Source of the DNA: Neofusicoccum parvum | Lineage: Eukaryota; Ascomycota; Dothideomycetes; Botryosphaeriales; Botryosphaeriaceae | Reading direction: 5' to 3' | Assembly: GCA_020912385.1 (NCBI GenBank) | Contig: CP087206.1 | Span: forward strand, 3,162,001-3,226,000 | Length of the DNA: 64,000 nucleotides | Shown: positions 20,219 to 23,691 of the stretch, in pieces | Position numbering within the stretch: position 1 is the stretch's first letter | How the letters are laid out: each line of letters starts with the position of its first letter | The notes under the pieces: generated by a model | Seen by the model: the letters and a program-made list of their open reading frames with translations, nothing else | Told to the model about the DNA's origin: nothing | Database searches by the model: none | Position numbers and translations under genes: made by a program

Positions 20219-21157
20219 TCATCTACCTACCATTTCGGTGATAGTCTCTTGCAGTGGCTTTGGCTTCCTGCCGTGCTTGGCCAGCAGTCGCTCCAGCGTG
20301 GTGTCCTTGTTCTCACATTCGTTATCACGTAATGCGTCATAGGTTGTAGACCACCATCGAGCGTAGCCGGGGCCGATGCCGCGCTGCTCGATGTAGAATT
20401 TTTCGTGTTCATCGCGGCCGACGACCTTGAGGTTGATCTGCCGGCCTTTGGCTGCCGACACCATGGAAGCCACGCCCTGCAGCGTGGCGCTAGTGGTGGT
20501 CGACAGCGTAAGCGTAACGCCCGCATAGCCCGAGGGCTGGTCGACCAGGATGCAGGCCGTGGCAAGGCCCAGGTCGTCGATGGCGGCCCAGCTGATGCGG
20601 CCGTCGCCCGCAACCACGACCTCGCCCCGGTCGTCCTGGCCGGACAGGTCCCCGTGCCCCAGGTACAGCGGCCAGGACTCGTTGTACAGGCCCTCGCGGA
20701 TGATGGTGTAGCCCGTGTCCGACAGCATGCGCAGGAACTCCTCGGTGCGGTTGTGGGCGCGCATGACGCCGGCTTTGCTGTGGGCCGCGAAGCCCAGCGA
20801 CGTGTAGTAGATGTGCTTCACGCCGGCAGCGCGGGCAGCGTCGATGGCGGCGAAGTGGTGGGCCTCGCGGCCGTGGCCGTACGGAGCGTCGTCGAAGTCC
20901 ATGCTTATCCGCGGGGTCGACACGAGGAGCAGGCGCTCGCAGTCGGCGAAGGCAGCCTCCATGGATTGCTTGTCATCGTAGCTGGCCGAGCGCACCGTGA
21001 CGCCCCGAGCCTTGATCTGATCCAAACGTGGGTCACCCGGGGAGGAAGAGGTGGTGACCACGATTTCGTGGGGTGGTAGTAGATGATAGGAGAGTAGGTT
21101 GCGTAGAACGGCGCCGCCTAGCTTGCCCGAGGCACCGGTGATCACGAGCTTGGGCAT
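20219..21157 (-). CDS. NmrA-like NAD(P)-binding oxidoreductase
   Basis: Single exon of 312 aa starting at the ATG at 21157. The N-terminus MPKLVITGASGKLGGAVLRN carries the GxxGxxG dinucleotide-binding loop (Gly 8, 11, 14) of atypical short-chain dehydrogenases. VKHIYYTSLGFAAHSK and WAAIDDLGLATA are typical of the NmrA / quinone-oxidoreductase-2-like (SDR-a5) group, which lack the classical catalytic Tyr-xxx-Lys. Members act as redox sensors or NADPH-dependent quinone reductases. Cytosolic; no targeting signal. A TATA-like element lies about 75 bases upstream. The substrate cannot be told from sequence. Confidence 0.87.
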   Translation of the reverse strand: MPKLVITGASGKLGGAVLRNLLSYHLLPPHEIVVTTSSSPGDPRLDQIKARGVTVRSASYDDKQSMEAAFADCERLLLVSTPRISMDFDDAPYGHGREAHHFAAIDAARAAGVKHIYYTSLGFAAHSKAGVMRAHNRTEEFLRMLSDTGYTIIREGLYNESWPLYLGHGDLSGQDDRGEVVVAGDGRISWAAIDDLGLATACILVDQPSGYAGVTLTLSTTTSATLQGVASMVSAAKGRQINLKVVGRDEHEKFYIEQRGIGPGYARWWSTTYDALRDNECENKDTTLERLLAKHGRKPKPLQETITEMVGR

Positions 21158-21588
21158 GGTCAGAAGTCAAGCAGTGTTGGGAGCGTGCATTGGAAGGAAG
21201 GACGGAGGGGCTGGAGGGCGGTTGCAGTCCCCTTATAAGCGGGTCAAAAGGAACCGGGCTGCGGGCCGCGGAATGGCGGGACTAAGGTCTCGGGCACGCT
21301 CGTGGTGAGTAAGAGCTGCGGTGCGGCTCGCGAGTGCTAAAGACGGTAGTCGGAGCAGCCAGGGCGAGCGCTGCGAGCGGAGCCGATTCCGGACATGATC
21401 GCGCGGGAAGGGGAGCTCCATGCAGGCTCTGGCCCTGCGATGCGGGGAAGGCGTCCTTCCTGCTGCAGCGGGCACAGCTGCAGCGGGCGTGCGGTCTCCC
21501 ATGACGCCATCCGCCTTATCGATAAGTGCAAATTATGTCCCCCGCCTCCGCTGCCGCTTTTTCTCGCGCTGGTCTGCAACGCGACACC
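21158..21588. promoter_or_regulatory. Divergent promoter, NmrA-like gene / methylthioribulose dehydratase gene
   Basis: 431 bases between two divergent start codons. A TTATAAG TATA-like box on the minus strand at 21233-21239 is well placed for the NmrA-like gene. No clear element was seen for the plus-strand gene. Confidence 0.5.
21233..21239 (-). promoter_or_regulatory. TATA-like element for the NmrA-like gene
   Basis: TTATAAG on the minus strand, about 75 bases upstream of the start codon. Position and sequence fit a TATA box, but this is a short match. Confidence 0.35.
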
Positions 21589-22763: not shown

Positions 22764-22931
22764 TCACATTATCGAGCACTTGACCGGGAGGCCGCAGGGG
22801 CCTTCCTTCTTCTCCTTCTGCTGAGGCTCATTCGGAGACGTCTCTTGCTGCTTCGTACCAGCAGGAGCGGCCTCCTTCTTCTCGGCGCCGTTGGTCGCAG
22901 CGCCATTAGCCCCCGCCGAGCCGCCATCTAG
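22764..22931 (-). other. Putative stop-codon readthrough extension ending in CAAX box
   Basis: In-frame continuation of the Pst2-like gene past its TGA. The junction reads TGA-CTA-G, the context known to give high translational readthrough in fungi and animals. The extension is 55 codons: a Gly/Ala/Asn then Glu/Lys/Pro/Gln-rich linker, then CGLPVKCSIM at the very end. CSIM is a CAAX box (Met at the end favours farnesylation), and the Cys six residues upstream could be palmitoylated, a Ras-like dual-lipid arrangement. No intron can remove the TGA: the only GT/AG pairs spanning it would be about 20-28 nt, while introns here are at least 47 nt. Full-length product would be 261 aa. The readthrough itself is inference. 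Confidence 0.75.
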
Positions 22932-23691
22932 TCACGCAAAGTTGACCTTGGAAACGGTCTCGTAGAAGGCCTTGCCCTGGGCCTCGGCGAGCTCGAGCTC
23001 CTTCTGAGTCGGCTGGCGCGAGCCATCGGCAGCGGAAAAGGTGCCAGCGCCCCAGGGGGAGCCACCGCGAACCTCGGACAGGTCGGCCAGCAGAGCGAAG
23101 GTGTGCTTGTAGCCGAGAGGCACGTAGATGATACCGTGGTGGGTGAGGGTCGACATGGCGGCAATGGCGGTGCTCTCCTGGCCACCACCAACGGTACCGG
23201 TGGAGATGAAAAGACCGGCGTACTTGCCCCAGAAGGCACCGGTCTGCCATTGGCCACCGGTCTTGTCCCAGAAAGCCTTCCACTGAGCAGGGAAGTTGCC
23301 GTATCTTGTGGGAATGCCGAACAGGAAGGCGTCGTACTGCTCGAGGACACTGGGGTCGTTCAGGGTTTCAACGGAGGTGTCCTTGGGAGGGGCGTGCATC
23401 TTGGTGAGGACCTCCTCGGGGAGGGTCTCGGGGACCCTGATGCGGTGTTAGCAGGGGTGCTTGTTTCCAGAGGGATGGCAACGTGGGAAGCCATACTGGT
23501 AGAGGGTGACAGAGCCGCCAGCGGCCTCAATACCCTTCTTCTCGGCTTCGGCGAGGGTCTTGACATGGCCGTACATGGAGTACTGTTCAACACAAAAGCA
23601 GTCAGCACACCGGCGGCCAGTGGGTCTCGGCGAGAGCTCAGAGGAGCTTGGCGGGGTAACACACGTAGACGATGGCGATCTTGGGAGCCAT
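22932..23691 (-). CDS. Pst2/Ycp4-like NAD(P)H:quinone oxidoreductase (flavodoxin fold), short form
   Basis: Three exons: 23691-23665, 23582-23497, 23436-22932 (205 aa), introns 82 and 60 nt. Flavodoxin-like WrbA/Pst2 family enzyme; it binds FMN and reduces quinones by two electrons, protecting against oxidative stress. Typical signatures: [15 protein letters not shown] (FMN phosphate loop), [23 protein letters not shown], and [12 protein letters not shown]. The same family includes the mould allergen Alt a 7. The body ends at the expected place ([14 protein letters not shown]) in a TGA at 22934-22932. The next bases are CTAG, and the same frame stays open for 55 codons to a TGA at 22766-22764 (see the separate extension entry). 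A TATA-like box is seen about 100 bases upstream of the ATG. Confidence 0.93.

Follow-up and report, generated by a model that had tools for sequence, protein, structure and literature searches.

A UGA CUA G stop in a Neofusicoccum parvum quinone reductase gene may permit readthrough into a conserved CAAX tail

In fungi, programmed readthrough has chiefly been described as a means of sending glycolytic enzymes to peroxisomes. For these enzymes, readthrough of a UGA stop followed by CUA yields peroxisomal isoforms (PMC4207609, PMC3798809), and the TGA CTA G context is reported to be leaky in both fungi and animals (PMC4207609, PMC4359377). In Drosophila, the extension that readthrough adds to Syx17 is predicted to carry a farnesyltransferase signal (PMC3840789). 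Another related system is the flavodoxin-like family of Candida, which is located at the plasma membrane and thought to keep ubiquinone reduced, and which in Candida albicans includes Ycp4, a protein with a C-terminal extension of approximately 90 aa that ends in a CAAX box (PMC4556627). Here we describe a quinone reductase gene of N. parvum that shares features with each of these systems. The gene lies in a 64,000-nucleotide stretch of DNA, hereafter the window, to which all coordinates refer unless a contig is named, and the window is part of contig C1 in an assembly of 44.0 Mb and 18 contigs.

The N. parvum locus resembles the fungal glycolytic genes in its short UGA CUA (G) context and, if its stop is leaky, would also resemble them in having a soluble major enzyme, a hidden C-terminal signal and one gene that serves two locations. 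The locus differs from them in that its enzyme is a quinone reductase, its extension of 55 residues includes an old conserved tail, and its hidden signal is a CAAX box, predicted to direct lipid anchoring, rather than a PTS1. The likeness to Syx17, which is already a membrane protein, is that a readthrough extension is predicted to end in a prenylation motif. However, Syx17 is a different protein from a different phylum and represents a single prediction, and it is not known to have a family of homologous sense-coded tails. Like Ycp4, which is found at the plasma membrane, the N. parvum product is a flavodoxin-like quinone reductase with a C-terminal extension ending in a CAAX box. In contrast, Ycp4 is encoded by its own gene beside Pst1-Pst3 and its tail is described without any stop, whereas N. 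parvum has one locus in which a TGA at 22934-22932 interrupts the sense frame before the tail. The occurrence of a separate Ycp4 gene with a CAAX extension suggests that yeasts may use separate genes where N. parvum has one.

The coding sequence of the short form consists of three exons on the minus strand. Exon 1 (23665-23691) provides codons 1-9 (MAPKIAIVY), which match annotated 205-aa N. parvum proteins, and is followed by an 82-nt GT-AG intron (23583-23664, GTGTGT...ACAG) whose removal restores the family sequence. Exon 2 (23497-23582) is separated by a 60-nt GT-AG intron (23437-23496, GTATGG...TCAG) from exon 3, which covers 22935-23436 up to where the short form has its final sense codon (...SKVNFA), or 23436-22932 with the stop included. 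NCBIfam assigns the sequence to the WrbA/type IV quinone oxidoreductases, with the 205-aa enzyme scoring 203.4 bits against the equivalog model TIGR01755 (cut-off 132.5) and 209 against NF002999 (cut-off 141), which identifies the product by family assignment as an NAD(P)H:quinone oxidoreductase of type IV (WrbA/Pst2). The product is identical to the protein of N. parvum UCRNP2 and differs by one residue from a second N. parvum record and by three from a record of N. ribis. A search of the 44.0 Mb genome at E 0.01 returned this single locus for the Pst2-type enzyme. A second locus, on the minus strand of contig C10 (1235323-1235790), matches Pfam FMN_red, and the Pst2-type enzyme gave no match there at E 0.01.

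The best solved relatives of the 205-aa enzyme are Saccharomyces Pst2 (PDB 5mp4, E 1.1e-78) and bacterial WrbA (E 1e-51), whose chains (198 aa) are covered by the alignment nearly to their termini, with no space left for a CAAX tail. Alt a 7 and Cla h 7, which are minor allergens of Dothideomycetes, are close relatives by name and approximately 63-90% identical; among the listed records they are mostly short forms, and the tail occurs only in some gene models. Two other genes lie nearby in the window. A class II aldolase/adducin-domain gene (PF00596; 21733-22424, plus strand) runs towards the quinone reductase gene, with approximately 340 bases between its apparent stop and the end of the extension, and a gene for an NmrA-like NAD(P)-binding protein (PF05368) forms one long open frame on the minus strand at 20219-21166.

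The original prediction, made from the sequence of the window, held that the enzyme reaches its family-typical C-terminus at a TGA followed by CTAG and that the same frame then stays open for 55 codons, and both statements were confirmed. The coding sequence ends in SKVNFA, the next codon is TGA (22934-22932), and CTAG follows, such that the stop is UGA followed by CUA and then G (22928-22934, minus strand), which is the motif presumed to be leaky (PMC4207609, PMC4359377). The 55 in-frame codons (22767-22931, minus strand) encode a linker rich in Ala, Gly, Lys, Glu and Gln and then the tail GPCGLPVKCSIM (22767-22802), which contains an upstream Cys and the CAAX box CSIM and is followed immediately by a second TGA (22764-22766). 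The Cys of GPCGLP, which lies six residues before that of the CAAX box, is a plausible site of palmitoylation. The extension frame contains no ATG before its last codon and so is not a separate AUG-started open reading frame. Frameshifting was also considered and was set aside as unnecessary because the tail sits in frame 0.

We evaluated how unusual these features are within the window. With codon scores trained on 22 uncurated long open frames, the extension frame scored 0.222, which is the best of its six frames, and 362 of the 366 open 55-codon runs that follow a TGA in the window, the extension itself being counted among the 366, scored below it. Long runs are common, as at least 55 open codons follow 364 of the 1867 TGA triplets in all frames of the window, and TGACTAG occurs there five times against 4.29 expected, which shows no enrichment. 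The case consequently rests on homology rather than on length or motif count. Predicted RNA structure 3' of the stop was ordinary (z -1.27), with 18 of 200 shuffled sequences folding equally well. The stops of the GAPDH and PGK genes in the N. parvum genome are TGA GGA, TAA CTC (at the end of the second GAPDH, which may be an unspliced intron) and TAA ACT; none is UGA CUA, and the genome therefore offers no positive control. At the PGK locus (contig C1, 1771622-1772368, minus strand) the TAA stop overlaps a GTAAGT donor, and a 75-nt GT-AG intron would yield the PTS1-like end ...ALSRSESRL, which fits alternative splicing for a peroxisomal PGK as reported for A. nidulans.

To place the extension among relatives of the enzyme, we used a set of 175 proteins that comprised the listed best matches of two overlapping searches (120 each, of 6938 and 5449). 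GPCGLP was present in 24 of these 175 relatives, and all 24 end in GPCGLP.KC plus three residues (GPCGLPxKCxxX), with a last residue of Q in 11, M in six, L in five and S in two; none of the remaining 151 has a Cys at position -4. In single comparisons, the extension matched the tail of the Phyllosticta long form P0014 over most of its length (BLASTP E = 1e-13) and a Neocosmospora tail over 18 residues near the extension's end (E = 1e-8). A degenerate DNA pattern for the tail occurred once in the 44 Mb genome and not at all when read backwards. The tailed records among the listed matches come from Phyllosticta, Teratosphaeria, Alternaria, Pyrenophora, Aureobasidium, Colletotrichum, Fusarium/Neocosmospora, Podospora, Rhypophila, Aspergillus, Penicillium and Rutstroemia. 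They span several classes, with Eurotiomycetes, Sordariomycetes and Leotiomycetes among them, whereas most of the named short forms belong to Dothideomycetes. A protein search with the tail region by itself (residues 200-261) yielded five candidates and no matches. In viral and prokaryote contigs scanned for stray fungal DNA, the tail pattern matched once and four times, respectively, none of these matches coming with a flavoprotein by tblastn, and the enzyme itself had no match among the viral contigs.

Judged by these alignments, the extension is homologous to the conserved C-terminal tail of annotated long forms and is more than a chance open frame. The linker had been predicted to be selected coding sequence, and this homology bears that claim out, such that the stop is followed by a conserved coding extension that ends in a known signal. 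The comparison further indicates that the tail is an old feature of the family, annotated as protein in other classes, rather than an invention of the N. parvum gene.

We also investigated where the relatives terminate. Nine other Botryosphaeriaceae records and one of Aplosporella stop at the same position as the N. parvum enzyme; the nine are P0002 and P0003 (N. parvum, on contigs smaller than the window's own), P0004 (N. ribis), P0005 and P0006 (B. dothidea), P0007, P0030 and P0052 (Diplodia) and P0013 (Lasiodiplodia). Short forms, defined as proteins of at most 216 aa without the tail, make up 126 of the 175 listed relatives. All 126 end within two residues of the N. parvum stop, 76 of them exactly on it, and their C-terminal letters are VNFA in 59 cases and KAHP in 29. 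From the shared position we conclude that the stop, on the evidence of these alignments, is real and old, which suggests that the frame of the tail has been preserved, open and complete, next to a long-standing stop.

Further evidence came from 68 environmental relatives, which were hand-picked from the listed matches and are known only from jgi, lgn or ena contigs. These proteins align without gaps across the junction of intron 1 in 67 of 68 cases and across that of intron 2 in all 68, all 68 end within three residues of the N. parvum stop, and none carries the tail. Their intron-free full-length frames, on contigs mostly of 0.7-1.4 kb, point to transcripts, and the gap-free junctions together with ends near the stop make them look like spliced transcripts that retain it. 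A further 18 proteins, 390-456 aa in length and drawn from jgi, lgn, ena, eukprot or mmetsp, were kept apart from the 68. Proteins P0008-P0012 and similar ones of approximately 390-456 aa, some from Symbiodinium, match the enzyme family and possibly consist of two fused WrbA-like domains.

We next compared eight tailed gene models from Dothideomycetes (P0014, P0019, P0057, P0097, P0115, P0124, P0127 and P0173) with the short forms, inferring the junctions from protein rather than DNA. The eight models appear to depart from the enzyme sequence at five points, with two of the five inside Alternaria: after AQAQ in two Alternaria, after AKAH in a third Alternaria, after FYEA in Pyrenophora, after KVSF in Teratosphaeria, and after a Lys in two Phyllosticta and Aureobasidium. 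In both Pyrenophora and Teratosphaeria, the model is short in one species and tailed in another. Such differing exit points fit gene predictors that skip a real stop. The junctions after Lys, seen in three of the eight Dothideomycete models and in Colletotrichum, would also fit a real AAG/GT intron in those lineages. In the two Alternaria species, the join AQAQ/DDGK would need NNA GAY at a GT-AG acceptor, which we infer would correspond to the CTA GAT signature of N. parvum. Among the Fusarium models, P0093 and P0107 read VANSQAKAA at the start of the tail and P0106 reads VANQAKAA, a one-residue difference as from tandem splice acceptors, which suggests a true intron at that point in Fusarium. 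Lineages may thus reach the tail by different routes, a pattern that reviews report for peroxisomal PGK and GAPDH.

The observations above raise the possibility that splicing, rather than readthrough, joins the enzyme to its tail, with a minor mRNA losing the TGA as for the peroxisomal PGK of A. nidulans and the short form representing the unspliced message. Splicing and readthrough form a mosaic across fungal species as routes to PTS1 tails (PMC4973966, PMC3798809), and in the quinone reductase family the join follows a Lys codon in the long models of Phyllosticta, Aureobasidium and Colletotrichum, while the Fusarium models differ as at tandem acceptors. We enumerated introns in the N. parvum gene with donors at most 200 nt upstream, lengths of at least 35 nt and acceptors before the tail motif, and found 60 in-frame GT-AG pairs that would excise the TGA yet keep the tail. 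Twenty-eight of these pairs use one of two weak donors near the stop, GTCAAC or GTTTCC, and the other 32 use donors at least 131 nt upstream, from which conserved enzyme sequence would be lost. The gene does contain the weak donor AAG/GTCAAC with in-frame acceptors and one CTAAT branch-like site; however, GTCAAC lacks a purine at +3 and a G at +5, and the donor that overlaps the stop, GC/GTGACT, has no in-frame acceptor. Accordingly, the gene revealed no donor, either overlapping the stop or preceding it, that would be usable together with an in-frame acceptor in the manner of the A. nidulans PGK gene. Donor quality was taken as a simple count of consensus positions, and the donor of the gene's second intron, GTATGG, also departs widely from the consensus. 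In addition, none of the 68 transcript-like relatives is spliced there, though a minor isoform could escape such a sample, and the junctions are inconsistent within Alternaria. Because the 60 pairs include no good donor near the stop, we rejected splicing as the leading route in N. parvum and kept it as a rival that we consider unlikely for this gene, while it is a live rival elsewhere in the enzyme family.

Other explanations bear on the stop itself. If the TGA had truncated an ancestral tailed protein, the tail would be an untranslated remnant, and a stop gained within the Dothideomycetes may be indicated by the class assignments, with tailed listed forms in Eurotiomycetes, Sordariomycetes and Leotiomycetes and short ones mostly in Dothideomycetes; the lack of TGACTAG enrichment in the window points the same way. 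Yet the stop is common to the Botryosphaeriaceae and Aplosporella while 55 codons remain open beyond it, the codon use of the extension is coding-like, the GPCGLP.KC residues common to the 24 listed tails have all been kept, and a second stop comes directly after the CAAX box, which together make a relic very unlikely in our judgment. A-to-I RNA editing could convert UGA to UGG during sexual development and thereby permit continued translation, and stop-loss editing of this kind is described in filamentous ascomycetes, but it prefers U at position -1 and hence UAG and UAA (PMC11156358). The A of UGA has G at -1, and editing would leave the CUA-G context unexplained, such that we regard this route as highly improbable. 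The original prediction had named a sequencing error or a recent nonsense mutation at the TGA as its main alternatives. The presence of the homologous tail in sense in other records would suit either, but nine other Botryosphaeriaceae records ending at the same position refute both, and we leave them a negligible chance. Readthrough accounts jointly for the shared stop, its context, the open frame and the missing intron, and we consider it likely that UGA-CUA-G readthrough gives a minor isoform with a CAAX box, the prelamin-like CSIM, beside a soluble major form.

Under the readthrough model, one gene would encode a WrbA/Pst2-type NAD(P)H:quinone reductase in two versions. Most ribosomes would terminate at the UGA and release the 205-aa soluble enzyme. 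Termination in the context UGA CUA G would be weak enough for a small share of ribosomes to insert an amino acid at the stop and so to add a flexible linker of approximately 40 residues and the conserved tail GPCGLPVKCSIM. The original prediction described UGA-CUA as a strong readthrough context, which agrees with the publication of TGA CTA G as a high-readthrough sequence (PMC4207609, PMC4359377). The extension ends in CSIM, a C-terminal C-a-a-X sequence of the kind accepted by prenyltransferases, and the proposal that it is a prenylation motif gains support from a yeast assay in which CSIM, the CAAX box of human prelamin A, was prenylated: it was modified fully by human farnesyltransferase and partly also without that enzyme, and it can be modified in part by GGTase-I (PMC11152559). 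The CAAX box would accordingly be farnesylated after readthrough, with possible palmitoylation of the Cys that lies six residues upstream. The minor form that bears these lipids would sit on membranes and could there maintain ubiquinone in its reduced state, a role proposed for flavodoxin-like proteins at the plasma membrane of Candida.

The class of mechanism is known, and exposure of a CAAX box in a quinone reductase would do for prenylation what readthrough and splicing in fungi do for peroxisomal signals. It had been suggested that readthrough-exposed prenylation was undescribed in this enzyme family. This part stands within the scope of our literature search, which most subscription papers lie outside: none of the matches listed describes a CAAX box revealed by readthrough in a quinone reductase of fungi, and prenylation is unmentioned in PMC5100048 and PMC4999894. 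As a general mechanism, however, such exposure has a precedent, in the form of a prediction, in Drosophila Syx17 (PMC3840789).

If the readthrough model is correct and the case conserved, readthrough would act as a switch for C-terminal addresses in general, with lipid anchors among them. The model would also explain why some annotations of an allergen family include a tail and others omit it, as gene predictors would be avoiding a real stop. Readthrough at UGA-C has been suggested to respond to oxygen (PMC4207609), and because the enzyme family counters oxidative damage, the gene would then make a simple test system for oxygen-responsive UGA-C readthrough. We give about even odds to a broader reading, in which Dothideomycetes at large would use a programmed leaky stop in one quinone reductase gene, that of the Alt a 7 / Cla h 7 family, to divide the enzyme between cytosol and membranes. 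The stop would then represent a conserved case of readthrough exposing a prenylation signal, possibly tuned by oxygen through UGA-C, where yeasts would assign the two locations to distinct genes, Pst2 and Ycp4, and filamentous fungi of other groups would always translate the tail or splice it in.
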